Below are positions 2,225-52,353 of a stretch of DNA of 64,000 bases, piece by piece. The notes under the pieces are model-generated. The model was not told where the DNA came from. It ran no database searches and saw nothing but the letters and a program-made list of their open reading frames with translations. Within the stretch, counting starts at the first letter, position 1; the number at the start of each line of letters is the position of its first letter. The DNA is from Nakazawaea peltata (taxonomy: Eukaryota; Ascomycota; Pichiomycetes; Alaninales; Pachysolenaceae): positions 624,620 through 688,619 of the forward strand of contig BCGQ01000007.1 of assembly GCA_001599355.1 (NCBI GenBank), read 5' to 3'. A program made the position numbers and the translations under genes.

Positions 2225-2330
2225 TCACGTGACAATCAAAATCACGTGACCGTCTCAAAATTTTTCACCTCACCTTAAAAAAAAAGGGCATCTCAGAGAT
2301 GAGGAAGGGGCAAAAGGGACAGAAAAACCG
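2225..2330 (+). promoter_or_regulatory. Paired Cbf1-type E-boxes before the PPR gene
   Basis: Two perfect TCACGTGA octamers lie at 2225-2232 and 2242-2249, starting 17 bp apart, in the 106-bp gap between SHE9 and the PPR gene. The octamer is the known Cbf1 site. In many yeasts outside the Saccharomyces genus Cbf1 controls respiratory genes, which fits the mitochondrial gene downstream. That it acts here is inference. Confidence 0.55.
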
Positions 2331-6574: not shown

Positions 6575-7822
6575 ATGGAAGAAATTGGAATCGGGAGCAG
6601 TCAGAAAACTGATTTGATCAGTCAGAGCAACTCTTTGTTGAAGAAATCATCCTCCAGCAAAAAGAATAACGATGTCTATTTGAGACTCAAGAAATTGGAG
6701 AAGGACCTCGAATTATTGGCCTTACAAGAGGAATACATCAAGGATGAACAGCGCCATTTGAAGAGTGAATTGATCCGCGCTCAAGAAGAGGTCAAAAGAA
6801 TTCAATCGGTACCTTTGGTTATTGGACAATTTTTGGAGCCAATCGACCAACAGACCGCCATCATTTCGTCGACCACTGGATCGAATTACGTGGTACGTAT
6901 TTTATCGACATTGGACCGTGAATTGTTGAAACCATCGTCTTCAGTTCTGTTACACCGTCATTCTAATGCATTGGTTGATATTTTACCACCAGAAGCTGAC
7001 TCTTCTATCTCCATTGTGGGTGAAGATGAGAAACCAGATGTAACTTACAATGATATTGGAGGATTGGATATGCAAAAGCAAGAGATTAGAGAGGCTGTTG
7101 AGTTACCATTAGTACAAGCGGAATTATATAAGCAAATTGGTATTGACCCTCCAAGAGGTGTATTATTGTATGGTCCTCCAGGTACTGGTAAGACGATGTT
7201 GGTCAAAGCTGTTGCTAATTCTTCATCGGCTTCGTTCATTAGAGTAGTAGCGTCGGAGTTTGTTCAAAAATATCTTGGTGAAGGTCCAAGAATGGTAAGA
7301 GATGTTTTCAGATTGGCCAGAGAAAACTCACCATCGATTATTTTCATCGATGAAATTGATGCCATTGCTACAAAGAGATTTGATGCCCAGACCGGTGCTG
7401 ATAGAGAAGTGCAAAGAATCTTGATTGAATTGTTGACTCAAATGGATGGTTTCGATCAAATGGCCAACGTTAAAGTCATCATGGCTACCAACAGAGCCGA
7501 TACTTTAGATCCAGCCTTATTAAGACCAGGTAGATTGGATAGAAAGATTGAATTCCCAAACTTGAAAGATAGAAGAGAACGTCGTTTAATCTTCAGTACC
7601 ATTGCTTCGAAGATGTCATTGGCTCCAGAAGTTGATTTGGATAGTTTAGTTATCAGAAATGACCCATTAAGTGGTGCTGTTATTGCTGCCATTATGCAAG
7701 AAGCAGGTTTAAGAGCTGTCAGAAAGAACAGATACGTAATATTACAAAGTGATTTAGAAGAAGCTTATACCAGTCAAGTCAAGAGTGGTAGTGATGTCGA
7801 TAAGTTTGACTTCTACAAATGA
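6575..7822 (+). CDS. RPT3: 26S proteasome regulatory ATPase Rpt3
   Basis: 415 codons from ATG 6575 (MEEIGIGSS). The N-terminal coiled coil ([28 protein letters not shown]) and OB domain precede an AAA+ module with Walker A GPPGTGKT at 200-207, Walker B IIFIDEID (D259, E260) and an arginine-finger region. The C-terminus is DKFDFYK, an HbYX tail that docks in the 20S alpha ring. It is nearly collinear with yeast Rpt3. The CTG at 6947-6949 falls where Rpt3 has Ala in SVALHRHSN. The gene is part of the base of the 19S particle, which unfolds ubiquitinated substrates. It converges on SMP3 with 28 bp between the stops. Confidence 0.97.
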
Positions 7823-14974: not shown

Positions 14975-16291
14975 TTAGAAAGCAGCAGACTTGTGGAAGT
15001 CCTTACCAGCGTAGACGGCCTTGTCACCCAATTCCTCCTCAATTCTCAAGATTTGGTTCAACTTGGCCAATCTCTCGGATCTGGCTGGAGCACCGGTCTT
15101 GATTTGACCAGATCTCAAACCAACAGACAAGTCGGCAATGAAGGTGTCTTCGGTCTCACCGGATCTGTGAGAAACCATGACACCCCAGCCGGCAGCGTAA
15201 GAGTCTTGAGCAGCCTTGATGGACTCGGTCAAAGTACCGATTTGGTTGACCTTCAACAAAAGACCGTTAGCAGCCTTCTTCTCGATGGCAGTCTTGATTC
15301 TGAGAGGGTTGGTGACAGTCAAGTCATCGGCAACGATTTGCAAGTTCTCAGCAACCTTGGAGTAGAAGATAGACCAAGATTCCCAATCATCTTCAGCGAA
15401 TGGGTCCTCAATGGAGACAATTGGGTAGTCCTTGATCAATTGAGAGTACAAGTCGGCCAATTCAGCACCGGTCAACCATTTGGATGGGTCAGAGTCTGGG
15501 TTCTTGAAGTCCAAGTCGTACTTACCATCCTTGAAGAACTCGGAGGAAGCGACATCCAAGGCAATACCAACCTTACCGTCGTAACCGGCCTTCTTAATAG
15601 AACCGTAGACCAAGTCCAAAGCTTCCTTTGGAGTAGAGATAGATGGAGCAACACCACCTTCGTCACCAACATTACCGGCAGATGGACCGTATTGCTTCTT
15701 GGCCTCGGCCTTCAAAGTATGGTAAACTTCGGAACCAATTCTCAAAGCCTCAGAGAAGGTTGGAGCACCAGTTGGAACAATCATGAACTCTTGGAAAGCC
15801 AAAGAACCACCAGCGTGAGAACCACCGTTCAAAACGTTTTGGAATGGAACTGGCAAAACGTATGGCTTCTTGGTAGCAGACAAGTCGGACAAGTGCTCGT
15901 ATAATGGAACACCCTTCTCGGCAGCAGCAGCATGGGCAACAGCAAGGGAAACACCCAAGATAGCATTGGCACCCAACTTAGCCTTGTTTGGAGTACCGTC
16001 CAACTCCAACAAGAAAGCATCAACCAGAGCTTGGTCCTTGACATCAAGGTTAGCCTTGACCAAAGCTGGAGCAATGACGTCGTTGACGTTGGCAACAGCC
16101 TTCAAGACACCCTTACCTAACCACTTGGACTTGTCACCGTCTCTCAATTCCAAAGCCTCGTGGACACCGGTGGAGGCACCGGATGGGACGATAGATCTGA
16201 ACTTACCCTTCTCGGTGGTCAAGTCAACCTCGACGGTTGGGTTACCTCTGGAGTCGTAGACGTATCTAGCAAATACCTTTTCAATGGCCAT
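14975..16291 (-). CDS. ENO1: Enolase (phosphopyruvate hydratase)
   Basis: 438 codons, ATG 16289-16291 ([23 protein letters not shown]). Full-length enolase with the C-terminal signature [14 protein letters not shown], Mg-binding D and E residues in [10 protein letters not shown], and the DDLTVTNP strand. It interconverts 2-phosphoglycerate and phosphoenolpyruvate in the cytosol. Codon choice is strongly biased (TTG, GTC, AAG, GGT), as in highly expressed yeast genes. I found a single in-frame CTG (16025-16027 on the plus strand as CAG, codon 89), and it matches the Ala of the yeast enolase DQKAVDDFL. A 303-codon antisense frame is an artefact of this bias. Confidence 0.98.
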
Positions 16292-34367: not shown

Positions 34368-37049
34368 TTATACAGACTGCACAAACTCATTAAGCTTCGG
34401 ATTAAGCATCACAATCTCAGTCAAAAGCGATTCATCTCCACCCTCTTCCTTAATTGCAAGGATAATATCATAGATTCTATTCACAAAATTCAACTCAATC
34501 AACTTTTTAATGTAAAGAATCAAGAAATACTTGAAGTTCTTGGAGTCATTGAGATACTTATAAATTAATATCTTATTTTCCAAATGATTCAAAGAAATAA
34601 TATTCTCCAAATTCTCAAAACCTTCCTTCATCAACATGATTTTACTAATTTTATTGAAGAACTTATTCTTTCCGGTTCTTAAGATTTCTTCATTGGTATG
34701 TTTTTCAAGCATAGAGATTATATTCAGACTCGTGGAGGATTCTTTCGATCCAATCAGAGTAGTATCCCAATATTGAGATCCAAATGCCCACCATGAATCA
34801 CTTACTAAAGACCAAGTACACATATCACTGTTGTAAATGTATCCATTACCACTGGATAGTGTCACTATAGGAACACCTTGCAGGGTGATGGAGCACAAGG
34901 TCAAATTTTCCAGTCTAGTTAATAAATCAGATTCATATAATTCTTGTTCTTGCAGTTGAGCCAGTCCATCTTCCCCTTCTGTTTGTACTTGCTTATTTAA
35001 AGAAGGTTTAATTAAAGGTTGTAAAAGAGGGAATAAAGAAGTAGGTTCAAATACCAGCTTTTGAGTCTTGATATTCCAAGCATAAATATCACCAAGACAT
35101 GTAATCAGCATGAGATAATCACCTTTACTCTCTAAAAATGAAACTGGAGTTCCTAACACTAATGGAGGAAGCAATCTTTTACCTGAATCTGAATATACAA
35201 TTACAGTACCATCGACTGTCAGAAGAGCCCAGAATAATCCTTCTCCTCCAGTTGTGAGTAAAATACGTTTAGGGACGAAATCAAAGAATATTTCCTTCTC
35301 TGATTCATCAGAAAGTGAAGTTTTCTTAAATAACTGGATTTTAGATGGTCCACTTTCATTCCCGTTACCATTTTTTACAAACAAATATAAAGAATCATCT
35401 ATAGGAGATGTATGTTCCCATACTTTTCTGATCTTTGGAATGGATAATCTGACATTACTGAAAGCACTTGATGGGTTAACTACTACAGAACCTACGAATT
35501 CTATTGGAATTATCTCCCTTCTGACTTTTTTCTTGGAGTTTTCGTCTCCGTTCTCCTCGATTTTACGTTTCAGTTGTTGGGAGATCTTGGTAGGAACCAA
35601 GTATGATGGCATATCGAATTCCATTGAGGTCTTGGCCACTTTATTGGAAGGATCTGTGGTCAATGGTTTTACAGTTGAACTATTTTGAGCAGAGGAAGAT
35701 CCCGATACAAGCATAGGCAGAACTCTTTTTTTACCATTCTTAGTGATAACTTTCTGAGATTCCAATTGAGGATCAGGAGTATTCTTTTTAGGGATGACCT
35801 CGGTCTTAGAAGATTCGATCTTCTTAATATTACGTTGTTCAGCCTCTTTAGACCAATCTTTTGTTGTTCTCACGCCTTCTACCTTAACCAGTTGAATTTG
35901 TCCTAATTCTTCTTGAGCAAAATTGAATACCAATAATTCTCCCTTCGAAGAAGTCACAAATAACGAGTTACCATCTATAGACCATACAATATCGAGAATA
36001 GTACCGGTCAGAACATCCTCCAGAATGACTATTGGACCTTCCAGAGTAGTATTCCATATCAGTAAAGTCTTATCTGAGCCGGCAGTGGCTAATATATAGG
36101 AATATTTACTATTTAAAGGCGAGTCCAGCTTAGAAGATGCGGATTCTGAACCACTAGGGTTCTCAAAAACATGAGGATTGAATTTAGAAACCTCACAATT
36201 GAAATTATGACCTACAAGAGAGCACCAACTCTTCCAAGATTGAGGACCAGAAGTGGTAACAGACGATCTAAGTAAATTCACAAGGCTCATTTTACCCTTG
36301 TTTGAGTTTGGGATTGAAATCAAAGCATCGTCTGATGAGAAATCGACTCTTCTAACTTGACTGATACGATTTAAACTTCCTTGTGTTATCAATTTGTTGA
36401 ATTTTGCAACCGATTCATGTCTAAAGAATCTTGCAGTGGTCAGATCAGGCTTGAAATTCCACATAATCTCATACTGAGTGAGAAGGATCATCTTGTCATC
36501 GGCTAATGAACAAAGCCATTTGCCATGAGAATGATCAAATTTCAATCCTTTGACCAGAGCATTATCCAGATGCAAATGTAAAATATCCATCACCTCTGAG
36601 AACCGCAGATCATAAATAATGATATCATTTTTGTAAGTAGCGAAAGCCAGGACCTCATCGTCCATATCCCAGGTGATCTCTGATATGTAAGCGTCGGAAT
36701 CAGGATGTTTGTATATACATTTTGACTCGAATGAGGTCTCGTTTGTTAGCTTGATCTCATAAACTGAGCCATTTTTCAGCGAGGCAATGAACCTTGAAGG
36801 GTCTGTACAGCTGAATCTCACGCACGTGACAGCATCGGTACCCAATTCTATCTCTAAAAAGGGCACCAATCCTTCAAAATCAGACAGTTTCGGTTGCTCT
36901 AATTGAGCAGCGTCTATAAGACTCTTCTTCCTCCATACAAGGCACTTACCATCAGAGCCACCGGTGACGATCCAAGCATCATCTGATGATACGTCGATGG
37001 AATTGATTTCCCCATTATGAAGAGTGGCGGGAACCTTGATCATGTGCAT
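34368..37049 (-). CDS. HIR2: Histone regulator Hir2 (HIRA-type WD40 protein)
   Basis: 893 codons, ATG 37047-37049 (MHMIKVPATLHNGEINSIDVSS); a second ATG two codons on is equally possible. An N-terminal seven-blade WD40 propeller occupies roughly 1-380. The B-domain region follows: TSMEFDMPSYLVPTKISQQL and IPIEFVGSVVVNPSSAF closely match yeast Hir2 (STSMEFNTPSYTVP...). The C-terminal Hira domain contains YSDSGKRLLPPLVLG, WALVSDSWWAFGSQYWDTT and MKEGFENLENIISLNHLENK. Hir2 works in the HIR complex, which represses histone genes and deposits H3-H4 outside replication. Divergent from CKB2. Confidence 0.96.
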   Translation of the reverse strand: MHMIKVPATLHNGEINSIDVSSDDAWIVTGGSDGKCLVWRKKSLIDAAQLEQPKLSDFEGLVPFLEIELGTDAVTCVRFSCTDPSRFIASLKNGSVYEIKLTNETSFESKCIYKHPDSDAYISEITWDMDDEVLAFATYKNDIIIYDLRFSEVMDILHLHLDNALVKGLKFDHSHGKWLCSLADDKMILLTQYEIMWNFKPDLTTARFFRHESVAKFNKLITQGSLNRISQVRRVDFSSDDALISIPNSNKGKMSLVNLLRSSVTTSGPQSWKSWCSLVGHNFNCEVSKFNPHVFENPSGSESASSKLDSPLNSKYSYILATAGSDKTLLIWNTTLEGPIVILEDVLTGTILDIVWSIDGNSLFVTSSKGELLVFNFAQEELGQIQLVKVEGVRTTKDWSKEAEQRNIKKIESSKTEVIPKKNTPDPQLESQKVITKNGKKRVLPMLVSGSSSAQNSSTVKPLTTDPSNKVAKTSMEFDMPSYLVPTKISQQLKRKIEENGDENSKKKVRREIIPIEFVGSVVVNPSSAFSNVRLSIPKIRKVWEHTSPIDDSLYLFVKNGNGNESGPSKIQLFKKTSLSDESEKEIFFDFVPKRILLTTGGEGLFWALLTVDGTVIVYSDSGKRLLPPLVLGTPVSFLESKGDYLMLITCLGDIYAWNIKTQKLVFEPTSLFPLLQPLIKPSLNKQVQTEGEDGLAQLQEQELYESDLLTRLENLTLCSITLQGVPIVTLSSGNGYIYNSDMCTWSLVSDSWWAFGSQYWDTTLIGSKESSTSLNIISMLEKHTNEEILRTGKNKFFNKISKIMLMKEGFENLENIISLNHLENKILIYKYLNDSKNFKYFLILYIKKLIELNFVNRIYDIILAIKEEGGDESLLTEIVMLNPKLNEFVQSV

Positions 37050-39147: not shown

Positions 39148-41883
39148 ATGAGCTACTTAACCACCGTCAGCATAGACGGCATGACTTGCACCAACTGTGT
39201 GCAGTCAATAGAGTCCGTGTTAGGAGCAATGCCAGGGATATCCAAAGTAGATGTGGCGCTTATGACAGAATCAGGCTTAATAAGACATAGTAAAGAGGTG
39301 TCACTGGAACAGATTTGTGAAGCTATTGAGGATTGTGGTTTTGGTCTGGAGTTAGTAAGAAGTGTCGAGGATGTTTCTGGTGGCGCTGACTCTTCAAAGA
39401 GTGTACCCGCGGTTACCTCCGAATCCAGTGAAGCGCTCTTGAAAATTTACGGGATGACCTGCTCTAATTGCTCTAATTCCATAGAACAGGCGGTTGGGGC
39501 TCTTACAGGTGTCAAATCATGTAATGTTTCACTCACTACAGAGGAACTGCAAGTCATTTATGACAGTTCCCTCACTGGTATTAGAGATATTGTGGGCCTG
39601 GTTGAAGATTGTGGTTTTGATGCTCTTGTCATCACCTCTCTGCAATATGATTTGAATACTCAGTTGGAACTGATCTCAAAAGTGAAACAAGTTCAATATT
39701 GGAGACGTAATTTCTTCCTTTGCTTAATATTCGGAGCTCCAATCGTGATATTTGGTCATTTACTCCCTGGTTTCATGGCCAAACACCACCATATGCACCA
39801 TAATCAAAGTCATATTGGTCCTAAGATCATGGATGGAGTGTATTTAGACCATATTTGTGAGTTTGTACTCGCAACTTACTTACAATTTGTCATTGGAAAG
39901 CATTTCTACATCAATTCTTGGAAGAGTTTGAAGCATCGTAGTGGTACAATGGACTTGTTAATTTGTATATCGACGTCTATACTGTATTTTTATTCGGTAT
40001 TTTCGATGCTTTATGCTTTATGTGTCACTCCACATAAGTCTCCAGACGTTTTATTCCCAACATCTCTGATGTTGTTCATCTTTATCAGTCTTGGAAAATG
40101 GCTTGAAAATAAGCTGAAGGGACTGACTTCGACTCTGTTGTCTCTGTTGATGTCATTACAGCCTCCTTCTTGTAATTTAGTACGTAATTTTAATGAGGGT
40201 TTGGTAGATTTACAGGTTGAGAATTTGGCTTTGGAATTACTTCAAGTTGGAGATATTTTACAAATCACTCCAGGCTCTAATATTCCTACAGATGGTATTG
40301 TTGTATTTGGATCAGGAGAGGTTGATGAGAGTTTACTTACGGGAGAAAGCATGCCTCAACTGAAAACTGTGGGATCTCGTTTAATTGGAGGTTCCGTTAA
40401 TGGAGTAAACGTCTTATATATGAAGGTATCTCAAGTAGGTGAGGCTACACAATTACAACAGATTGTTAAGTTAGTTAAAGACGCTCAAATGACTAAAGCG
40501 CCAATCCAAAGATACCTGGACTCGATTCTGTCTATCTTTGTTCCTACAATCTTGATATTACTGACAATTACATTCATCTTTTGGACTTGTGTGGTTCTGT
40601 ATTATACTTCTCATGGTTATGAATTGCCCTCGTTTTTGCTGGAGGAGTCTGGTCGTTTCAACAAAATTTTGACCATGTCAATCAGTGTTATTGTAGTGCT
40701 GTGTCCTTGTGCCTTAGGTTTGCTGCTGCCTACTCTGATCATGGTAGGTACTGGAGTCGGTCTGTCTAATGGTATTTTGATCAAGAGTGGAGAATATTTG
40801 GAAGTAGCCAACTCTATTGATTGTATCTTGTTTGATAAGACAGGTACTTTGACTACAGGAGATTTCCGCGTACTCAGTCTTGAACTTGTTGAACCTCGTC
40901 TTACCAAATTGTCCGACAATGCGATCTGGAATATCATTGGCAGTATCGAGAGAAATAGTGAACATCCAATTCTGAAATCTTTGGTCAAATATGCTGGAGA
41001 GAACCTCTCAGAAGATGTTATTATCAAAGACCTCGACTTCCACAGCACAATGGGTGTCACTGGTATTGTAGAGTATGAAGGTGAAGTTTATGAGGTGAAA
41101 TTAGGAAGTTTGCAATTGCTTGGACAACAGAAAGAAGAATCTGCTGGCACTCTGGTCCATATTGTAATCAATGGAGACTATGTTGGATACATTAACCTCA
41201 GTGATGACATTAAACCTGAGCTGATGGAGGCCACTTCAAGATTACAAAACCTCGGCTATAAAGTTCTGATGTGTACTGGAGATAATCAACAACTGCTGAT
41301 ACGTACACTGCAACAATTGGGTATCGAAGGAAGTGATGTCTATTATAGACAAACACCTCTGGATAAGAGTGAGGTGATCAAGAGACTTCAATCTCAAGGA
41401 TTGCGTGTACTGTTTGTCGGAGATGGAACTAATGATCTGCCTCTGTTGATCCAACTGGATTTAGGTATCCTGGTCAGTACAGGTACTGATATCCTGATCG
41501 AAAGTGCCGATGTAGTGTTACTCGAGAGGGATGTTCTCAGTGTTGTAGGAACTCTTGATATCTCGAAAAGAACATTCAGTAGAATCAAATGGAACTTTGT
41601 TTGGGCCATTGTGTACAATTTATTGATGTTACCATTCCTGATGGGATTCTTCATCATACCATTTGGAGTTTCTTTGAACCCAATGATCCTGTCGCTGAGT
41701 ATGCTGTTTAGTAGTGTTAGTGTGGTTGTTTCATCTTTACTTTTAAAGAATTGGCAACCTCCTACTGAATCGGGGCAATTGAGATTCAAGAAATATTCAT
41801 TGAGATGGTGGAGTTTCCAATTGAAAAAGTTAATTGGTTTCAAATCGCAAAGTGACTATATCGAACTTAATGAGATGGCATAA
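39148..41883 (+). CDS. CCC2: Copper-transporting P1B-type ATPase (Ccc2)
   Basis: 911 codons from ATG 39148. Two N-terminal heavy-metal domains with MTCTNC (C14, C17) and MTCSNC (C105, C108). Then come the actuator TGES motif, the membrane CPC at 519-521, the phosphorylated D563 in DKTGTLT, SEHPI, and the hinge GDGTNDAPAL. It moves copper into the Golgi lumen for multicopper oxidases by family knowledge. Read with CTG as Leu the protein breaks near-invariant positions; with CTG as Ala it reads VVACPCALGLAAPTAIMVG, exactly as in homologues. Copper delivery would come from Atx1. Codon CTG is frequent here. Confidence 0.96.
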   Translation: MSYLTTVSIDGMTCTNCVQSIESVLGAMPGISKVDVALMTESGLIRHSKEVSLEQICEAIEDCGFGLELVRSVEDVSGGADSSKSVPAVTSESSEALLKIYGMTCSNCSNSIEQAVGALTGVKSCNVSLTTEELQVIYDSSLTGIRDIVGLVEDCGFDALVITSLQYDLNTQLELISKVKQVQYWRRNFFLCLIFGAPIVIFGHLLPGFMAKHHHMHHNQSHIGPKIMDGVYLDHICEFVLATYLQFVIGKHFYINSWKSLKHRSGTMDLLICISTSILYFYSVFSMLYALCVTPHKSPDVLFPTSLMLFIFISLGKWLENKLKGLTSTLLSLLMSLQPPSCNLVRNFNEGLVDLQVENLALELLQVGDILQITPGSNIPTDGIVVFGSGEVDESLLTGESMPQLKTVGSRLIGGSVNGVNVLYMKVSQVGEATQLQQIVKLVKDAQMTKAPIQRYLDSILSIFVPTILILLTITFIFWTCVVLYYTSHGYELPSFLLEESGRFNKILTMSISVIVVLCPCALGLLLPTLIMVGTGVGLSNGILIKSGEYLEVANSIDCILFDKTGTLTTGDFRVLSLELVEPRLTKLSDNAIWNIIGSIERNSEHPILKSLVKYAGENLSEDVIIKDLDFHSTMGVTGIVEYEGEVYEVKLGSLQLLGQQKEESAGTLVHIVINGDYVGYINLSDDIKPELMEATSRLQNLGYKVLMCTGDNQQLLIRTLQQLGIEGSDVYYRQTPLDKSEVIKRLQSQGLRVLFVGDGTNDLPLLIQLDLGILVSTGTDILIESADVVLLERDVLSVVGTLDISKRTFSRIKWNFVWAIVYNLLMLPFLMGFFIIPFGVSLNPMILSLSMLFSSVSVVVSSLLLKNWQPPTESGQLRFKKYSLRWWSFQLKKLIGFKSQSDYIELNEMA

Positions 41884-43122
41884 TAGATTTTTAAATACTA
41901 ATATTTATAATGAATATATGAAAATTTTAATATGAGGTGAAAATAAGTGAAATTCGCACTACTTTTCAGGGCGTGGTTGAACCCTGAGGTTAGCCTTACC
42001 CTAAGCCGAGTTTCTAAGCCTGAAGGGAGATGGCTTAGAATGTGGGGGAGAATTTAAGCGAATTACGAAAGGGGATTGATGGATCTAAAAGATACACAGA
42101 AGTGTCAATCATGCTGGACGGCCCGTTATCATCCTCGGATCTGATGCTTACGTACTCATCGGAGGTGATTTGTTATCAGTATCGATGAGGCCATCGCTAA
42201 ACGGATGGGCAGAAGCGAAAAGAAACGAAAAAAAGGGCAGAAAATGCGGTGCCAAGAATTGTAATAGAAAAGTATGGCCATACATTCGGCGCTGTGCGAG
42301 CGAAATATCTTGGCGAAAAAGGAAGGAATAACTAGTGAAAAATTTTCTGCCCATGGAAGAGCCGAGGATGTGTACTATGCCCAGACAAATAAGAAAGCCG
42401 CATACCAAACGTTATCTCAGCGGCGATGCCGCGGCGCGTCAGACCCCTAATTGGGTAGTGCGTCGGGTGGTGAAAGGCGTTGTTCTGGGAGAAAATGTTT
42501 GGAGAGTGTAAGTGCATGAGAGCTTTGAACAGAGTCATGATGGCTTTGAAATTTTGACTCCGTTGTCATAATAGTCATGCGATCAATTATTTCCTCGTAA
42601 CTACTGTTCTAAATTGAAATGCTGCTGCTTCTCCAGATAAGCTTGTGTTAAGCAATTCCCGCTGCCAATAGTTTCCCTCCCCAAGAAAAGGGCAAGCCAG
42701 TCAAAGAAAAAAGAAATAAAAAAAGGCAAGTATCATGATCACGACAAACTTTAAATTTGAAATATCACGGATGAATGCGATGGAGATACCAAGCCAAGTG
42801 GTCCAATGGGGTATAATTTGTGCGTCACGGATGGTCGTAGTCACCGAGGATCAACATCACTCTTATCTCCATCGCATTCCTCCGCTACACTCTCTCCCAA
42901 TCCTCTCTGCTCTCTCGTTTCTTTTCCGCCCTGCCCTTCTCTGTTATTGTTTCCTAATTAATTTTATGCAAGAAGAAAAAAATTTTGTCCTTTTTCCTCT
43001 TCTACTGGCAGATAAGGATATTTTTATCGGAACCACCCAAGGGGTCTGCGAGATATCAATATAAATACAAATGGGGATGCAGTGAGTTTTGAAAATGGAA
43101 ATCATTGAACTACAAAATCAAA
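41884..43122 (+). promoter_or_regulatory. 1.2-kb FCY2 upstream region with GATA sites and short uORF
   Basis: Several GATAAG/CTTATC-type sites occur: TTATCA near 42125 and 42173, TTATCT near 42413, AGATAAGC at 42636 and AGATAAGG at 43011. These suit nitrogen-regulated control by GATA factors, as known for purine permeases. TATAAATA is at 43060-43067. An ATG at 43095 opens a 13-codon frame that ends at 43136, inside FCY2 and out of frame with it. I see no gene in the rest; the 42735-43064 frame looks accidental. Confidence 0.45.
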
Positions 43123-44670
43123 ATGTCTCTGGGTGATATCGAAAAGAATGCCTCAATGGGCTCGAAGGACTTCGAGTTGAACAGATCCGACTCTGTCTCC
43201 TACACTGGAGAGGTCGAACCTCTGAACCAAACTATGTTTGGCAGAGTTAAGAAGCTGATTATGGACAACACCGAGACCACCGGTGTCGAACGTATTAAGG
43301 AGGACGAACGTACTGGTGACTCCTTGTATACTGCTGCTTCTATGTGGTTGTCTCTGAATATGGTTATCCTGTCCTTCTCTTTGGGTTGTTTGGGTACCGG
43401 TATTTGGGGTCTTAACTTTTACGTTGCCCTCTTAGTTATCATTTTCTTCAACTTTTTGGGTTTGACTGCCGTTGCTTTCTTCTCTATCTTTGGTTTCAAG
43501 ACTGGTTTAAGACAAATGATGGTCTCCAAGTACCTTGTTGGTAACCTGGGTATGAGAATCTTTGCCTTTATCAACGGTGTCGCTTGTATTGGTTGGTCTA
43601 TTGTTAACACCATTGCCAGTGCTTCTATGTTGACTATGATCAACCATGGTTCTGGTCACAACATGCCACCTTGGGCTGGTTCTCTTGTTATTACCATCTT
43701 GACCTTCATTGTCTCCTTCTTTGGTTACAGAGTTGTCCATGCTTATGAGAAGTTCTCTTGGGTACCAAACTTCATTGTTTTCCTCATTGTCATTGCCAGA
43801 TTGGCCAAGTCCGGTCAATTCACTCCAGGTGAATGGACTTCTGGTCCAACTACTGCCGGTAACGTTTTGTCCTTCGGTGGTACCGTTTTCGGTTTCGCTG
43901 CTGGATGGCTGACTTTGGCTTCTGACTACACCACTTATATGAACGTTGACACCAACTCTACCAGATGTTTCTTCTCTGTTATGGCTGGTTTGCTGTTCCC
44001 ATTGTTGTTCACCATGATTTTGGGTGCTGCTTGTGTCTCTGGTATCAATGCCAACGAAAGATGGGCCGAGCTTTACTCCGAACACTCTGTCGGTGGTTTG
44101 CTTTATGCCGTCTTGGTCGAGGACTCTTTACACGGTTTCGGTGAGTTCTGTATGGTTATCTTGGCTTTGTCCACTGTTTCCAACAACTTGCCAAACATGT
44201 ACTCCATTGGTTTGTGTTTCCAAGCCGTTTGGTCCAAGTTCCGTGTCATCCCAAGATACGTTTGGTCCGTTGTCGGTAATGCCATCGTCCTTGGTATCTG
44301 TATTCCTCTGTACTACAAGTTCGAGACCGTTATGGAGAACTTCATGAACATGATTGGTTACTACTTGGCCATTTACATCGCCATGTCTCTTTCTGAGCAT
44401 TTTATCTACAGAAAAGGTAAATTCTCCAACTATAACTTGGCTGTCTGGAACGATAACTCTCAATTACCTCTTGGTATTGCCGGTGTTCTGGGATTCTGTG
44501 CCGGTGCCGCTGGTGTCGCTTTAGGTATCTGTCAAGTTTGGTACACCGGTGTCATCCTGGCCAAGATTGGTGGATGGGGTGGTGATATTGGATTCGAATT
44601 GAGTGCCTCCTTCTCCTTCGTTGTCTACAACATTGTCCGTCCATTCGAGTTGAAATACTTTGGCCGTTAA
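43123..44670 (+). CDS. FCY2: Purine-cytosine permease (Fcy2 family)
   Basis: 515 codons from ATG 43123 (MSLGDIEKNA); the TTG at 43105 is rejected. Nucleobase-cation-symport-1 protein with twelve spans. Strings shared with yeast Fcy2 include GSGHNMPPWAG, FFGYRVVHAYEKFSWVPNF, TTAGNVLSFGG, FTMILGAA, NNLPNMYSIGL, GYYLAIYIAMSLSEHF and the end NIVRPFELKYFGR. It imports adenine, guanine, hypoxanthine and cytosine with protons at the plasma membrane. Codon bias is strong, so it may be highly expressed. CTG codons at 43354, 43993 and 44308 sit on Ala positions of the yeast protein. Confidence 0.96.
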   Translation: MSLGDIEKNASMGSKDFELNRSDSVSYTGEVEPLNQTMFGRVKKLIMDNTETTGVERIKEDERTGDSLYTAASMWLSLNMVILSFSLGCLGTGIWGLNFYVALLVIIFFNFLGLTAVAFFSIFGFKTGLRQMMVSKYLVGNLGMRIFAFINGVACIGWSIVNTIASASMLTMINHGSGHNMPPWAGSLVITILTFIVSFFGYRVVHAYEKFSWVPNFIVFLIVIARLAKSGQFTPGEWTSGPTTAGNVLSFGGTVFGFAAGWLTLASDYTTYMNVDTNSTRCFFSVMAGLLFPLLFTMILGAACVSGINANERWAELYSEHSVGGLLYAVLVEDSLHGFGEFCMVILALSTVSNNLPNMYSIGLCFQAVWSKFRVIPRYVWSVVGNAIVLGICIPLYYKFETVMENFMNMIGYYLAIYIAMSLSEHFIYRKGKFSNYNLAVWNDNSQLPLGIAGVLGFCAGAAGVALGICQVWYTGVILAKIGGWGGDIGFELSASFSFVVYNIVRPFELKYFGR

Positions 44671-44761
44671 AAAATTCACTTCTTTATGTCTAGCTTAGTT
44701 TGAGAATTAAATAATTTGCTTAATTGATATTTATTACGATGTTTCTATATACAGTTTGAAG

Positions 44762-45679
44762 TTATAACATTTTCATAAAATCTTGTTCTCCTTTGGCCAC
44801 GTCTTGCTTGGACTGGATCTCGGCATTCTTTTGAGCCAATTCCATCAATTCGTCGTTCTCCCCACTCAAACAAGCTTCCACCTCACTTAAGCCAGCCCCA
44901 CTATTCAGCTCCGTATTGCCTAATAAGGTTGCGCGCACCAAGTTGTCCAAATTTTTGGACATCACCTCGTCCAAAGTGTAGAAATTGTCCGAGTTCTTCA
45001 AGTCTTTGTTTGGACGGTCGAACAGTTCTACGATGGCCAGGTTCAATTGGTCCTCGGTGGTGATGAAGGAGGAAGCAGAGTTGTATAATTCCAATAACAG
45101 AGTCAGTTTCTTTACTTTCAGTTCCAATTCATGGTTCAATCTGTTGGCCTCTCTTTTCTTCAGTAATAGCAGTTTTTCTTCCTCGGTTCTTTGTCTCATA
45201 ATTGGACCTTGTAAATATTGTTCAACGGAGGGGATGGTCAATCTGAACAGATCACTTTCGGTTTGTTCATTCAGGGCCAGTTCAAGTTGTAAGGCTTTAT
45301 CGTTTTCCAGTTTCAGAATTTCGTAATCTCTTTGTCTCGTCAATCTGGCCAGTTCCTTCTCATAACTTTCTCTTAAAAATCCACGTCTCATATTGGAGTT
45401 TTGGATTCTGATTCTTTGTTCGATTGGTAACTGTTGGAGTTCCAGATCTGTGAACTGTTTCTTTGGTAATGGCAGTGTCTTGTCCATTCTCTTATGTAAA
45501 GGAACGAATTCAGGGAATTTCTGTTCTCTGGTTGATCCTCTTGGATGTAATACTCCCTCAGCATATCCGGTGTTGGCTTGTTTCTCCCTTTGTACTGGGA
45601 ATATTGACTGTTTAAAGATGGCTCTAGGCGTTGGTAAATACCCGGATTTTCCGCCGAATTTCAAGTTTCCTTTTCCCAT
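44762..45679 (-). CDS. PET123: Mitochondrial small-ribosomal-subunit protein mS26 (Pet123)
   Basis: 305 codons, ATG 45677-45679 (MGKGNLKFGGKSGYLPT), matching Pet123 (MGKGAAKYGFKSGVFPT). TGYAEGVLHPRGS, MRRGFLRESYEKELARL and GPIMRQRTEEEKLLLLKKREANR correspond to further Pet123 blocks. Mostly helical and coiled-coil. Pet123 sits near the mRNA channel of the mitoribosome and interacts genetically with translational activators. Convergent with FCY2, 91 bp apart. Confidence 0.93.
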   Translation of the reverse strand: MGKGNLKFGGKSGYLPTPRAIFKQSIFPVQREKQANTGYAEGVLHPRGSTREQKFPEFVPLHKRMDKTLPLPKKQFTDLELQQLPIEQRIRIQNSNMRRGFLRESYEKELARLTRQRDYEILKLENDKALQLELALNEQTESDLFRLTIPSVEQYLQGPIMRQRTEEEKLLLLKKREANRLNHELELKVKKLTLLLELYNSASSFITTEDQLNLAIVELFDRPNKDLKNSDNFYTLDEVMSKNLDNLVRATLLGNTELNSGAGLSEVEACLSGENDELMELAQKNAEIQSKQDVAKGEQDFMKML

Positions 45680-46045
45680 TTTGACGTGAGATTCAGATTA
45701 GATGGCGATTAGCTTGAAATGAGCCTGATGCTACCTTGATATGACGGTTGATCTGAGGTTACTCCGGTTGGATTCATTTCTCATAGTGAATTTTTTTCAG
45801 CGAAATTGGTGAAAATTTTCTTATTGACACGGGAATTTGGAATGGCAGAGCTGGGGAATAGTATGGAGATTTATCTATTGTATGGAGATTGTATAGGAAT
45901 GGCATTGACATGTATCCATGGCATTGACATGTAGCCATGCTATGCACCTGTATCCATGCTACCCATCGCACAGCATTTACCTACTGAGTCACCTCATATC
46001 TACAATCCTTATACTATACTTTCTTCATTCTATACTAAAAATACA
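45680..46045. repeat. PET123 upstream region with 19-bp tandem repeat
   Basis: Three copies of a 19-bp unit (ATGGCATTGACATGTATCC) start at 45899, 45918 and 45937, the third diverged, with a partial fourth at 45956. The remaining 366-bp gap between PET123 (5' end) and RPB7 (3' end) shows no gene. Confidence 0.7.
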
Positions 46046-46651
46046 TCAAAGTGCTCCTAAATAATCCTCATTAATGGAACCCAAAGCAACAATATGGTTA
46101 ACATCTGATCTAACAGCCGTAATCTTTAATCTAATCTTAGATCCCTTAGTGATCAACTGATCATCTCCCATATACAGAGGAGGAGTATTACTTGGATTAT
46201 ATGTCAATTCCGAAGGTAACGTTTGAACTGCAATGAACACCTCCAATGGCCCAACATCGACAAAAATTCCAATCTTCTCCACTTTACTAACAATACCATC
46301 GACAACTTCCCCCTTGAATGGTTTCCACACTATAGCCCTATACTGTACTTCGAATTCGGCGTATCCCGAGGTTGGGATAATCCTGCCCTTACCCACGTTG
46401 ATATCGACCGAATCTAGCACCGACACAATGAACCCAAACTGTCCAGAACATGTTCCTTCCACGTCTGTCAACAATTTGTCACGTAAATACCGGTTCATCT
46501 GTGGCCCGAAATACGACGGGTGCAAAGTCAAGTTCAACGACAAGTTTTTCTACCTATAGTTAGTATTGATCAATCGTGAATTTGCCATCAAAAGGCTCTA
46601 TCCCTCGTATCTCATAGCTGTTGGCATATCCGCACTTACTAAAAAGAACAT
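46046..46651 (-). CDS. RPB7: RNA polymerase II subunit Rpb7, two exons
   Basis: Spliced on the minus strand: exon 1 is 46640-46651 (ATG plus three codons, MFFL) and exon 2 is 46046-46549. The 171-residue product begins [20 protein letters not shown], against yeast MFFIKDLSLNITLHPSFFGP, and has exactly the yeast length. RNP-like domain first, then an OB fold ([26 protein letters not shown]) ending INEDYLGAL. With Rpb4 it forms the stalk of RNA polymerase II, in the nucleus. Without splicing the first eight residues would be lost. Divergent from MRPL23, which also has a first-exon intron. Confidence 0.97.
46550..46639 (-). other. RPB7 intron
   Basis: 90 nt on the minus strand: donor GTAAGT right after codon 4, branch TACTAAC at 46559-46565, acceptor GTAG ending at 46550. 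An earlier AG four bases upstream (TATAG) is too close to the branch point and would break the frame. Confidence 0.93.
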
Positions 46652-46916
46652 CTTTACCCTCTATCTCGTCTGTCGAATCCACCTGCTCCCTTAACCGCCG
46701 TTTAAAAACCTCGTCAATTTGCCCTTTTTTTTCTCGTCGAGGTGAAAATATCGAGGTCGTGTAAACTCGCCCAAACCTAATATGAGCTCTGGAAATATCC
46801 AAAGGTCGTGTACATTTGCCCCAAAATCAATATGAGCTCTGAAAAATTTTTGGACAGATTTGAGGGCGGTTAATTGAAGAGAGGGAGGTTAAGAACTGGA
46901 GGAACAGAAGGACAAG
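46652..46916. repeat. Divergent promoter RPB7 / MRPL23 with 49-bp tandem duplication
   Basis: Two diverged copies of a roughly 49-bp unit start at 46755 and 46804. Each opens with GGTCGTGTA, continues with a CGCCCAAA or GCCCCAAAA run and ends in AATATGAGCTCTG. The duplication thus doubles the GTCGTGTAC element between two divergent genes. Confidence 0.7.
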
Positions 46917-47494
46917 ATGTCATCAAAACTTGGAAGAGTAAGTGGATATAGATTTGGAGTGGTTGTGAGAGCTGTGTTACTAACTTTTTGTATTAGACTG
47001 CGATCTCTTTCGCCAAAGCATGGCACCATGTTGATGCCGCCGAAGACCCAAGAACCCTTGGTAGATTGGCGTCATCTATTGCTATTACATTGATGGGAAA
47101 ACACAAACCAGTTTACCATGAGACCCAGGACGTAGGAGATTACGTCGTCGTGTCGAACTGCAAGCATTTGAAGATTTCAGGTAACAAATTTGAAGAGAAG
47201 ACCTACTGGTCTCACACAACAAGGCCAGGAAGTGGAAAGCTGACGCCTATGGAGAAGATTGCAAAGGATGTAGGTCATGGAGAATTATTGAGAAGAGCTG
47301 TTAGTAAGATGTTACCTAAGAACAAGTTGAGAAAGCAAAGATTGGATAGATTGAAGGTATTTGATGGAGATGAACATCCTTATAAGCAGAATCTTATTCT
47401 GTTTGCTGATCAGCTGCCTCTTGTTAAGGCTAGACTTGAGAGATTGAATGAGCAGACCAAAATTTTGCAGCTGTACATGAACCAGAAGAAATAG
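46917..47494 (+). CDS. MRPL23: Mitochondrial large-ribosomal-subunit protein uL13m (Mrpl23), two exons
   Basis: Exon 1 is 46917-46937 (MSSKLGR), exon 2 is 46997-47494, giving 172 residues. The join reads [20 protein letters not shown], against yeast [20 protein letters not shown]. L13 core: [38 protein letters not shown] and [20 protein letters not shown]. It belongs to the mitochondrial large ribosomal subunit. Using only the unspliced frame would remove about 30 conserved N-terminal residues. Confidence 0.97.
46938..46996 (+). other. MRPL23 intron
   Basis: 59 nt: donor GTAAGT after codon 7, branch TACTAAC at 46978-46984, acceptor TTAG ending at 46996, 12 nt after the branch heptamer. Confidence 0.94.
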
Positions 47495-48648
47495 ACTTGT
47501 ATATATGAATGGAGAGATTTTAAGATAAGTAGGGAGTAATATTAAAGACGGGGTACTATATACAGACATACCAGTGATCTAGTGATCTGGTTATTGATCA
47601 GTAGCTAGCAATGTAGTGAGTACTGTAATGCTCTGCCGTAGTGGACATTGTAATGTTCTGTCGTAGTGATCACTGTACTGCACTGAAGTGGTAAGGTCGG
47701 GTTGGTGATTTGGTGTAATGATGTTGATTGTAGTGAGCGTAGAAAGAAGGAAGTGAAATGTTAAGCACTGAGGGAGAGTGAGAACAAGGAAAAAGTGAGG
47801 GAAGAAAAGACGGAAGAAAAGACGGAAGAAAAGAGGGAGGAAAAGAGGGAACAGCTGAGGGAACAGCTGAGGGAACAACTGAGAGAGAAGCAAAGGATTA
47901 ATTCTGTAGGTGATATCAATTCAGTGAGTGGGAGTTTCCGACTCATCGGCTTCAATATGGAAGCTCAGGACATGAAGCTGATCTGCAGTTCATTCAATTA
48001 GCATTATCTTCTAAGTATCCCTCCTTCTCCACTGATTATTTCCTATAAAGGAAATACTATCAATTTCTCAATGAGGTAATCTCGTATATAACTTATATAA
48101 TCAGATTACTAAGAATAATAGAAGACATAGAAGTACAGTATCGGAATTATCTAGACAACTGATTCTTCAAATTTCTTACTTCTTTCACTAACTGTAACAC
48201 TGACTCTAACTGTAGCTCTAACTCTAACTCTAACTCTCCAACTATCAATTCCTTACATCTCACCACCCCTCTGCCTACCCCTCCCTACCCTTCCTGCTTT
48301 TCCCTGTGTTTAGTATGTGCTTAGTACCTATTTAGTCGTGCACTCCCAATTTATCAACGAAAAAAATTCGACAAAAACAACAATTTTCACCCTTCCCCAA
48401 AACTTCCATCCCAACATTGAAGGCGTTGTATTGAAACAAAGGGGAATCGATCGATATATCCTGTTTCTCGTGTTACCGCTGACTGTCATTGTCATTTCAT
48501 TTCATTTGTTTTTTCTTTTACCCCCCACTGAATCTCACATACTCCCCCCGCCACCGTCGAATTTTTACGATTAAGCGCCGAGTGTTTTTGTAATCAGTTC
48601 ATTGTACATTAATAGAACCCGACAGCTAGAACAGGAACAATTGCCAAG
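47495..48648 (+). promoter_or_regulatory. 1.15-kb gap before RPB2, repeat-rich
   Basis: Three 25-bp imperfect repeats start at 47613, 47638 and 47663 (GTAGTG...TGTAATGYTCTG). A nearly pure purine tract covers 47775-47870, with GACGGAAGAAAA and GGGAACAGCTGA sub-repeats to 47895. CTCTAA hexamers repeat at 48204-48237. AGTCGTGCAC followed by TCCCAAT is at 48334-48350, about 300 bp before RPB2. The small frames in the purine tract are low-complexity and I do not call them genes. Confidence 0.55.
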
Positions 48649-51600
48649 ATGGATCTGTATTCATTCGACGACCAGATAACAACCGAGGATTGTTGGACCG
48701 TGATCTCACTGTTCTTCCAGGAGAAAGGTTTGGTATCGCAACAGTTGGATTCGTTCGACGAGTTTATTGGCACCACCATCCAAGATTTGATTTTGGAGGA
48801 CTCCACTTTGATTTTGGAACAACCTGCCCAACATGCTACTGAGCAAGATAGATTCAATAAGCGTTATGAGATCCAGTTCGGTAAGACTTATTTGACCACT
48901 CCAACTATGACTGAAGCCGATGGTGCCGCCCATACTATGTATCCACAGGAGGCCAGATTGAGAAATTTGACATACAGTGCTACTTTGCAAGTTGATATGA
49001 CCAAGAGAGTCCTTGTAAGTGATGATGATGAGACCAGAGAGACTGGTGAACTGGTTTGGAGACCTCAAGTGGATGAGAATGGGAAGATTGAAGAAGAGCC
49101 AGAACAAGTCAGTTTGGGTAGAGTTCCGATCATGTTGAGATCCAAGTTTTGTGTTTTAAGAGATTTGACCGAGGCTGAGTTCTACAATTTGAAAGAATGT
49201 CCTTATGATATGGGAGGTTATTTCATTATTAATGGATCTGAGAAGGTTTTGATTGCCCAAGAGAGAAGTGCTGCTAATATCGTTCAAGTTTTCAAAAAAC
49301 TGGCTCCTTCGCCAATTTCTCATATTGCCGAGATCAGATCCGCTTTGGAGAAAGGTTCTCGTTTGATCAGTGGTATGCAATTGAAGTTATATGGTAGAGA
49401 AGATAAGGTGACTACCGAAAGAACTATTAAACTGAAGTTGCCATATATTAAACAAGATATCCCAATTGTCATCATCTTTAGAGCTCTTGGTGTCGTCCCA
49501 GATGGTGATATTTTGGAACATATTTGTTACGATGAGAATGATTGGCAAATGTTGGAGATGTTGAAGCCGTGTGTTGAAGAGGCTTTCGTTATTCAAGACA
49601 GAGAAACTGCTTTGGATTTCATCGGTAGAAGAGGTAATGCTTTGGGTATTAGAAGAGAAAAACGTATTCAATACGCTAGAGATATTTTGACCAAAGAATT
49701 CTTACCTCATATTACTCAAGAGGAAGGTTATGAAACCAGAAAGGCTTTCTTCTTGGGTTATATGGTGAACAGATTGTTGTTATGTGCTTTAGAAAGAAAG
49801 GAACCAGATGACAGAGATCATTTCGGTAAAAAGAGATTGGATTTAGCCGGCCCATTGATGGCTAATTTGTTTAGAATTCTTTTCAGAAAGTTGTCCAAAG
49901 ATATCTTCCGTTATATGCAGAAATGTGTCGAGACCAACAGAGATTTCAACTTGGCCTTGGCCGTTAGATCCAATACTATTACCGCTGGTTTGAAGTACTC
50001 CTTGGCTACTGGTAACTGGGGTGAACAAAAGAAGCTGATGACTTCTAGAGCCGGTGTTTCTCAAGTTTTGAATCGTTATACTTACTCTTCTACCTTATCA
50101 CATTTGAGAAGAACTAATACTCCAATTGGAAGAGACGGTAAGTTGGCCAAGCCTCGTCAATTACATAACACTCATTGGGGTCTTGTATGTCCTGCCGAAA
50201 CTCCTGAAGGTCAAGCTTGTGGTTTAGTCAAGAACTTGTCGTTGATGTCTTGTATTTCTGTGGGAACTCCTTCAGACCTGATCTTGTTATACTTGGAAGA
50301 ATGGGGTATGCAAGCCGTTGAAGATTTCACCCCATACAAGGAACCTGAGAATGCCAGAATCTTTGTTAATGGTGTTTGGGTAGGTACTCACTCGGACCCA
50401 GCTCAATTGAACGCTGCTATCAGAGATTTGAGAAGACAAGGTGATATCAACCCAGAAGTTTCCATCGTTAGAGATATCAGAGAGAAGGAGTTCAAGATCT
50501 TCACCGATGCCGGTAGAGTTTACAGACCATTGTTCATTGTCGACGACGATGAAGACAGTGACCGTAAAGGTGAATTGAAATTGAGAAAGGAACATGTACA
50601 AAGATTGATAGAAGAAGTCGAACAAGACGAACCTGTTTATAATGAGGATGAAGAAGAGGATGAAGAAAGACTCTACGGTTGGTCAGGTTTAGTACAGAAG
50701 GGTGTCATTGAATACGTCGATGCTGAAGAAGAAGAGACCATTATGATTGCTATGCAAATCGATGATTTGATTTCAGCAAAGAAGGATCAATTGGAACAAC
50801 TGCTGCGGCAACTGCTGGAGGATGAGGAGGATGAGACTGATCTGGCTAAGAGAATTAAACCTCTGCATTTGAGTAGTCATACTTTCACCCATTGTGAGAT
50901 TCATCCTTCGATGATCTTGGGTGTCGCTGCCAGTATCATTCCATTCCCAGATCATAACCAATCTCCAAGAAACACCTATCAATCTGCTATGGGTAAGCAA
51001 GCTATGGGTGTATTTGCAACTAACTACAATGTCAGAATGGACACCATGGCCAATATTTTGTACTATCCTCAGAAACCATTGGGAACTACCCGTTCTATGG
51101 AGTTCTTGAGATTCAGAGAATTACCAGCTGGTCAAAATGCCATTGTCCTGATTTCTTGTTACTCTGGTTATAACCAAGAAGATTCTATGATTATGAACCA
51201 ATCTTCTATCGATAGAGGTTTGTTCAGATCTTTGTTCTTCAGATCGTACAGTGATCAAGAGACAAGAGCCGGTATGCAAACATTGCTGCAATTCGAGAAA
51301 CCTCATAGAAGTGATACTCTTGGTTTCAAGCAAGGTACTTACGAGAAATTGGATGAGGATGGATTAATCGCTCCTGGTGTCAGAGTCAGTGGAGCCGATA
51401 TTATCATTGGTAAGACTACTCCTATCCAACCAGATTCTGAAGAATTGGGTCAAAGAACTAAATATCATACGAAGAGAGATGCTTCTATGCCTTTGAGAAC
51501 CACCGAGAACGGTATTGTCGATCAAGTTGTCGTAACCACCAACCAAGAAGGTTTGAAATTCGTCAAGGTTAGAACTAGAACTACTAAGGTTCCTCAAATT

Positions 51601-52353
51601 GGTGATAAGTTTGCTTCTCGTCACGGTCAAAAAGGTACTATTGGTATTACTTACAGAAATGAAGATATGCTTTTCACCGCCGAAGGTATGGTTCCAGATT
51701 TGATTATCAACCCGCACGCTATTCCATCTCGTATGACTGTGGCGCATTTAATCGAGTGTTTGTTATCCAAGGTTTCGTCTCTTACCGGTATGGAAGGTGA
51801 TGCTACGCCATTCACCGATATCACAGTCGAACAAGTGAGCAAATTATTAAGAGAGAACGGATACCATTCAAGAGGATTCGAACTCATGTACAACGGTCAT
51901 ACCGGTAAGAAGATGATGCTGCAAGTATTCTTTGGACCAACTTATTACCAACGTCTTAGACATATGGTTGACGATAAGATCCATGCCAGAGCCAGAGGAC
52001 CAGTTCAAATGTTGACCAGACAACCAGTGGAAGGTAGATCCAGAGATGGTGGTTTAAGATTCGGAGAGATGGAGAGAGATTGTATGATTGCGCACGGTGC
52101 GGCCGGGTTCTTGAAAGAAAGATTGATGGAACTGTCGGATGCGTTCAGAGTTCATGTGTGTGGTATTTGTGGATTGATGAGTGTGATTGCCAATTTGAAG
52201 AAGAATCAATTCGAATGTAGATCTTGTAAGAACAAGACGATTATCTATCAATTACATATGCCATATGCTGCTAAGTTGTTATTCCAAGAATTAATGGCTA
52301 TGAACATTGCACCAAGAATGTATACTGATCATTTAGATGGAAGTATTCATTGA
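48649..52353 (+). CDS. RPB2: RNA polymerase II second-largest subunit Rpb2
   Basis: 1234 codons from ATG 48649. Collinear with yeast Rpb2 (1224 aa): [24 protein letters not shown] at the start, [38 protein letters not shown], the [16 protein letters not shown] fork region, [35 protein letters not shown], and the C-terminal zinc site CGICG...CRSCKN. It forms half of the polymerase II active cleft. At least seven CTG codons (49300, 49432, 50035, 51148, 51919, 52132 and probably 50840) align with Ala of yeast Rpb2. An acidic insertion ([13 protein letters not shown]) lies in the variable region near residue 670. Confidence 0.99.

Follow-up and report, generated by a model that had tools for sequence, protein, structure and literature searches.

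The stretch analyzed here (hereafter the window) comprises 64,000 nucleotides of the yeast Nakazawaea peltata (contig BCGQ01000007.1, positions 624,620 to 688,619) and carries genes for a CCC2-type copper P-type ATPase, the second subunit of RNA polymerase II (RPB2), a HIR histone-regulator homologue, a proteasome ATPase (RPT3), enolase, and an FCY2-type purine-cytosine permease (Table 1). CTG codons recur in these genes, and an earlier reading of the sequence (hereafter the original prediction) held that they are translated as Ala. Our analysis agrees: CUG encodes Ala, as seen in the Ala columns beneath CTG, in a transfer RNA (tRNA) gene with the matching anticodon, and in the phylogenetic place of the species. 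The window almost certainly belongs to a budding yeast of the Alaninales that reads CUG as Ala (NCBI code 26) by means of a tRNA with anticodon CAG, hereafter tRNA(CAG).

Table 1 Genes, selected CTG codons, and the tRNA(CAG) gene. Positions are those of the window except for tRNA(CAG), where they refer to contig C4 of the genome (G000) and to locus L084
Feature	Position	Strand	Remarks
CCC2-type copper P-type ATPase	39148..41883	+	Pfam E1-E2_ATPase/HMA/Hydrolase; 41 CTG, 61% of its Ala codons
CCC2 codon 518, CTG at Ala of ACPC	40699..40701	+	column Ala 0.94
CCC2 codon 539, CTG in GVGA	40762..40764	+	column Ala 1.00
CCC2 codon 766, CTG in NDAPAL	41443..41445	+	column Ala 0.99
RPB2, RNA polymerase II second subunit	48649..52353	+	Pfam Rpb2 domains 1-7; 17 CTG
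HIR histone-regulator homologue	34368..37049	-	Pfam Hira; 24 CTG
RPT3 proteasome ATPase	6575..7822	+	one CTG, at 6947, at Ala of SVALHRH
Enolase	14975..16291	-	one CTG, codon 89, window 16027; 54 Ala codons
FCY2-type purine-cytosine permease	43123..44670	+	Pfam Transp_cyt_pur; 11 CTG
tRNA(CAG)	G000:C4:81426-81498 (L084:1470-1542)		fixed-length pattern, cmsearch, Rfam tRNA

Residues at CTG codons

Residue-level columns were analyzed for CCC2, RPB2, and the HIR homologue, which together hold 82 CTG sites. The homologues (the best 120 listed for CCC2, the best 120 listed for RPB2, and 14 for HIR) were aligned with CTG masked as X, weighted columns were read, and sites with coverage below 0.7 were dropped (8 of 82), leaving 74 usable sites. 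Summed over these, the column evidence amounts to +120 bits for Ala, -53 for Ser, -136 for Val, -146 for Thr, and -152 for Leu. Ala leads in each gene, with +94.4 bits in CCC2 (Ser -18.6), +21.0 in RPB2 (Pro -8.4), and +4.7 in the 21 usable HIR columns (Ser -18.1, Leu -31.2). Nineteen CTG columns in the three genes are at least 80% conserved, of which 17 are Ala, one is Pro, one is Glu, and none is Leu or Ser. The original prediction had proposed a tabulation over 35 proteins and had named dominance of Leu or Ser at CTG columns as evidence against itself; residue-level columns cover three of the 35, each favors Ala, and no such dominance appears in them. Among the other codons present in these genes, 57 of 59 are assigned to their standard residue. 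The remaining two, CGC and CGG, have one usable column each, CGA is absent, and apart from CTG every codon that has two or more usable columns follows the standard code.

An in-frame CTG was found at all 23 coordinates that the original prediction listed for CCC2 (13), RPB2 (6), FCY2 (3), and RPT3 (1). Ala is indeed the commonest residue at all 13 of the CCC2 columns (0.55 to 1.00). The RPB2 sites, likewise said to be conserved Ala, are so at codons 463, 834, and 1091 (Ala 0.97-1.00) and more weakly at 218 (0.43), 262 (0.54), and 1162 (Ala 0.46, Val 0.44); as stated for yeast Rpb2, the PDB chain YOR151c has Ala at 218, 262, 463, and 834. The Ala of SVALHRH is found in the best PDB chain for RPT3, itself named RPT3. 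For enolase, the single CTG at codon 89 was confirmed and reads as Ala under code 26; the one homologue compared has Lys at 89 (DQAKIDEF, with Ala at 88). CTG codons placed at 83-85 of an SPP2 gene could not be recovered: in no ATG-started frame of 80-399 codons do codons 83-85, numbered from the first ATG, include at least two CTG.

Profile hidden Markov models (HMMs) from which the closest relatives were excluded gave Ala the best score of the 20 residues in CCC2, RPB2, and HIR alike. Their scores sum to 4284.2 bits for Ala, 4230.4 for Ser, and 4109.8 for Leu, which ranks 18th of 20. For Pfam, 30 window proteins were scanned with CTG as Ala and 27 were rescanned as Leu and Ser, the other three being one WD40 protein and two proteins without Pfam matches. 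Over 46 window domains above cut-off, hand-chosen with overlapping families on the same stretch omitted, the sums are 6085.8 for Ala, 6000.1 for Ser, and 5930.9 for Leu; Ala was better than Leu in 35 domains and tied in 4, and better than Ser in 28 and tied in 6. The FCY2 permease, for example, scores 218.4 bits against Transp_cyt_pur as Ala, 215.3 as Ser, and 212.2 as Leu. The search was extended beyond the window to the genome (11,631,020 bases, 11 contigs), where the 10 open reading frames (ORFs) richest in CTG among 21 listed were scanned. Seven had Pfam matches, with 12 domains over cut-off, which sum to 1300.9 for Ala, 1285.9 for Ser, and 1243.1 for Leu, and Ala was better than Leu in nine and better than Ser in six. 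A MIF4G domain just under cut-off (30.6 bits as Ala, 32.4 as Leu, 27.1 as Ser) was excluded from this set. Taken alone, the Pfam margin of Ala over Ser is modest, and the decision rests on the columns and the tRNA.

Several observations weigh against Ala. The claim that no CTG falls on a site requiring Leu went too far: at HIR 134 (0.71, the clearest exception), CCC2 175 (Leu 0.55, Ser 0.35), and CCC2 134 (Leu 0.39, Ala 0.35) the most frequent residue is Leu, as it is weakly at CCC2 498 (0.18) and HIR 765 (0.25, coverage 0.62). Two RPB2 CTG codons fall on columns of other residues, codon 544 (window 50278) on Pro (0.93) and codon 880 (window 51286) on Glu (0.98). Ala scored worse than Leu in 7 and worse than Ser in 12 of the 46 window domains, and in 1 and 4, respectively, of the 12 domains elsewhere. 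The exceptions among CTG sites are few in number. The CTG codons at RPB2 544 and 880 could be lineage-specific substitutions or products of local misalignment.

The Leu columns at HIR 134, CCC2 175, and CCC2 134 and the seven domains that prefer Leu are what the standard code can draw on, under which CUG would be Leu and the Ala columns would reflect coincidence, pseudogenes, or assembly error. However, the frames are long and intact, Leu stands near the bottom of the profile ranking, and ORFs elsewhere in the genome also prefer Ala to Leu. Columns of the three genes that are at least 80% Leu hold 94 Leu codons and not one CTG, which would have a probability of 2e-11 if CTG were a Leu codon used proportionally. 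On the columns, the profile ranks, and the ORFs elsewhere, we rejected the standard code, whose remaining probability is negligible.

The code also bears on database proteins. The CCC2 relative P0003, 57% identical to the window protein, has Leu at 12 of the 41 window CTG sites. Among the 19 CCC2 CTG sites where the other homologues are at least 70% Ala, seven have Leu in P0003 and in none of the others; at codon 766 P0003 has Leu, and the remaining homologues counted have Ala (P0004 omitted from both counts). The simplest reading is that the P0003 gene likely also has CTG at these sites, translated by the standard code, so that at least one database relative apparently carries a standard-table error. 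Against this reading, the HIR relative P0243 shares the Leu of most homologues at codon 134. For P0003 and P0243 alike the longest contig given is 50,864 bases, and the two genes may lie together there, as their counterparts do in the window. In the frames counted below, the standard table misreads about two codons in a hundred.

Candidate tRNA genes for reading CUG

A fixed-length tRNA pattern matched 23 places in the genome and 15 in the reversed control; a single place among the 23 proved to be a tRNA gene, and its anticodon is CAG. It scores 62.4 bits against a five-sequence model (cmsearch) and 50.9 bits against the Rfam tRNA model, a run of T lies 3' of it, and a DNA search found it once in the genome. 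An Rfam tRNA search of the genome returned 63 genes without it, an absence that is uninformative because only the best candidates were scored. Similarly, cmscan at the gathering threshold missed the gene in its locus and recovered it when run permissively on 221 bases. ARAGORN labels the gene Leu, a label derived from the anticodon under the code of the tool.

Read by eye, the acceptor end of tRNA(CAG) has G1-C72, G2-C71, G3:U70, and A73. The gene shares a T6/T67 mismatch and the variable loop AGGTC with the tRNA-Ala of the same genome; this loop has five bases and no Ser-type variable arm. tRNA(CAG) pairs with CUG. Alanyl-tRNA synthetase would be expected to charge it with Ala on account of G3:U70 and A73, and seryl-tRNA synthetase to be excluded by the short variable loop.

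The variable loop bears on a decoding of CUG as Ser, as in the CUG-Ser clades. Ser comes next after Ala by column evidence and by summed score, and it is preferred to Ala in 12 of the 46 window domains. Its column evidence nevertheless lies 173 bits below that of Ala, none of the 19 conserved CTG columns is Ser, tRNA(CAG) lacks a long variable arm, anticodon CAG is missing from the seven tRNA-Ser genes found, and the RPB2 tree places the species outside the Candida group. Ser was rejected on the columns and the tRNA, and we give it next to no credence.

The original prediction had named Leu or Ser identity elements in a tRNA(CAG) as contrary evidence. The Ala-like acceptor end and the missing Ser-type arm agree with the prediction; the tRNA also carries A35, G37, and A73, which PMC8629427 gives as Leu marks in yeast. 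The anticodon loop, TTCAGGT, matches by eye the loops of the Leu AAG and UAG genes of this genome except at base 34, and from these bases low-level leucine charging of tRNA(CAG) is possible. While we infer the purity of CUG decoding as Ala, CUG could also be mostly Ala with a few per cent Leu, through the Leu-type bases of tRNA(CAG) or through misreading by tRNA-Leu(UAG), which we consider improbable. G37 is also expected next to G36 in tRNAs that decode codons starting with C, and ambiguous Leu would have to be tolerated at the invariant Ala sites of the P-type ATPase. The Leu-type loop with A35, G37, and A73 nevertheless corresponds to Leu identity in yeast, and Leu charging of about 3% is described for Ser tRNAs(CAG) with G37 in the cited part of PMC8629427.

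Outside the anticodon loop, tRNA(CAG) is identical to tRNA-Val(UAC) at 48 of 67 positions, to tRNA-Ala(AGC) at 46 of 66, and to tRNA-Ala(UGC) at 42 of 66, in a comparison with 22 other tRNA matches from which several isoacceptors of the genome are absent. By sequence, its body thus appears as near to tRNA-Val(UAC) as to tRNA-Ala(AGC), a further point against our reading. The resemblance is divided by region, being closer to Ala(AGC) in the acceptor end, the T-arm, and the variable loop and to Val(UAC) in the D-arm and anticodon stem. DNA searches with tRNA-Ala AGC and UGC returned those two kinds only. A genome search for tRNA-Val(CAC) at ordinary spacing matched 16 places (18 in the reversed control) with no credible CAC gene; the letters of Val AAC were present at five of the places (one of them verified as a tRNA) and those of Val UAC at one. 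Since a Val(CAC) gene with an intron or another spacing would escape this pattern, a valine origin of tRNA(CAG) is a guess. The window frames contain 195 GTG codons, with no credible tRNA-Val(CAC) found at ordinary spacing, and the sole Val UAC gene found ends in T where A73 is expected.

All 16 exact type-II A-box places in the genome proved to be tRNA genes, with the Leu anticodons CAA (5), UAA (2), UAG (1), and AAG (1) and, in seven Ser genes, AGA (3), GCU (2), CGA (1), and UGA (1). One of the CAA genes, L109, was counted as Leu by eye, the program labeling it as Val with an intron. None of these 16 Leu- and Ser-type genes has anticodon CAG, and the search could overlook genes whose A-box is altered or spaced differently. 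With one further A-box spacing, 46 places matched, and 21 in the reversed control; of the 46, the one inspected proved not to be a tRNA, and a test for a variable-arm stem gave no discrimination among them. From these genes a surviving tRNA-Leu(CAG) seems unlikely, and the ancestral gene has most likely been lost.

The only tRNA-Leu(UAG) gene found lies on contig C4 (A-box match C4:804707-804718, minus strand). A query with an S. cerevisiae tRNA-Leu(UAG) sequence had no match and so missed even this gene; its result is uninformative. The intron, 120 nucleotides as cut by eye, forms a strong hairpin (fold -37.9, shuffles -18.8 ± 3.0, z -6.33). In Saccharomyces, tRNA-Leu(UAG) reads CUG as Leu, and long structured introns occur in the tRNA-Leu(CAG) of another clade, according to parts of PMC5951914. 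The intron seen here may restrain misreading of CUG. The gene has a long variable region and may be functional or decaying.

CTG as a common Ala codon

Codons were counted in 30 ATG-started window frames of at least 150 amino acids (15,680 codons); of the 31 such frames listed in all, the one at 2270-2749 (minus strand) was left out because it overlaps another gene. CTG occurs 344 times (21.9 per thousand) and, at 33%, leads the Ala codons of the window, followed by GCT (331), GCC (239), GCA (77), and GCG (50). The genome sample consists of 124 ORF pieces from 77 loci (47,066 codons), which are open frames of at least 150 codons and not verified genes, and part of it is counted twice because some loci overlap. 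In this sample CTG makes up 895 of 3111 Ala codons (28.8%), second to GCT, and 27.8% in 36 ORF pieces from 22 of the pattern loci. CTG is a common Ala codon here and not a rare remnant. It also occupies conserved positions, unevenly among genes: across the three aligned genes, columns of at least 80% Ala hold 53 Ala codons, of which 17 are CTG, with 14 of 18 in CCC2 (the other four being GCN), 3 of 34 in RPB2, and 0 of 1 in HIR.

CTG is absent from two frames that we take to be EF-1alpha-type from a GTP_EFTU match and their sequence, which have 33 and 34 Ala codons, and nearly absent from enolase (1 of 54) and RPT3 (1 of 29). Expression levels of these genes are assumed; such scarcity is expected since one tRNA gene was found for CUG and six for GCN. 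The Leu codon CTA is very rare, with 28 occurrences in the 15,680 window codons and 145 in the 47,066 codons of the genome sample. Since CUA is unpreferred across the subphylum (PMC11540330, in part), its rarity here need not reflect the code.

These observations can be joined in one proposal, which we offer tentatively and regard as rather unlikely to hold in full: CUG would be a main Ala codon outside the most highly expressed genes, tRNA-Leu(UAG) would be held down, and tRNA(CAG) would perhaps be a former valine tRNA. CUG would have spread to invariant Ala sites, and the single tRNA would be limiting in highly expressed genes. The folded intron and the near abandonment of CUA would hold down tRNA-Leu(UAG), so that the meaning of CUG stays clean. 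A valine-type tRNA, and not a mutated tRNA-Ala, may have become an Ala acceptor by gaining G3:U70. The CTG frequency and the intron bear on how a reassigned codon is reused and how a competing Leu tRNA is excluded.

Phylogenetic place and comparison with known CUG codes

Among the matches listed, the window RPB2 is 92% identical to one database protein and 89% to that of Pachysolen tannophilus. In an RPB2 tree of 34 rows, the window and the 92%-identical row are sisters and Pachysolen joins next, both nodes with support of 100/100, which agrees with the group of Pachysolen, Nakazawaea, and Peterozyma named by the original prediction. NCBI taxonomy places Nakazawaea in the family Pachysolenaceae of the order Alaninales. 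These three genera form the Ala clade, for which mass spectrometry and a dedicated tRNA have shown the code (PMC5951914, in part). The code itself is therefore not new, table 26 being known for the Alaninales.

Elsewhere, in the parts cited, CUG codes were recovered computationally (PMC8629427), five CUG-Ala species were omitted from a survey of codon usage (PMC6701816), and codons of Alaninales were counted with the correct table and no discussion of their CTG use (PMC11540330). The frequency of CTG, its pattern with expression, and the intron of tRNA-Leu(UAG) are unstated in the literature listings and passages searched. Linear-plasmid-type DNA polymerases, searched for through their Pfam family, had no match; the control matched 1 of 14 genomes with none over cut-off, and this null says little about killer plasmids.

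The CUG-Ser1 code of the Candida clade concerns the same codon and likewise uses a novel tRNA(CAG) with G37, and CUA is under-represented there as well (PMC6701816, in part). It differs in the amino acid, which is Ala here, and in the long variable arm that tRNA(CAG) of the present genome lacks. Decoding of the Saccharomyces type, as given in parts of PMC5951914, is similar in that one tRNA-Leu(UAG) gene was found here; unlike there, CUG is not Leu, and the gene carries its 120-nucleotide hairpin intron.

The closest likeness is to the CUG-Ala code that Pachysolen, Nakazawaea, and Peterozyma use (table 26). Shared are the placement of CUG at Ala sites, a dedicated tRNA(CAG) whose acceptor end is Ala-like, the lack of a tRNA-Leu(CAG) among the 16 type-II genes found, and the grouping with Pachysolen in the RPB2 tree; for Pachysolen itself, PMC4986446, as far as cited, reports no CUG at positions where Leu or Ser is strongly conserved. 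The D-arm and anticodon stem of the present tRNA(CAG) are closer to tRNA-Val(UAC). The 2018 survey (PMC5951914, in part) states that in code-changed clades CUG is relatively rare and tends to avoid well-conserved sites. Here, CTG supplies 28-33% of the Ala codons counted; this frequency does not fit that statement, nor does CCC2, with CTG at most of its conserved Ala columns, whereas RPB2 agrees with it.

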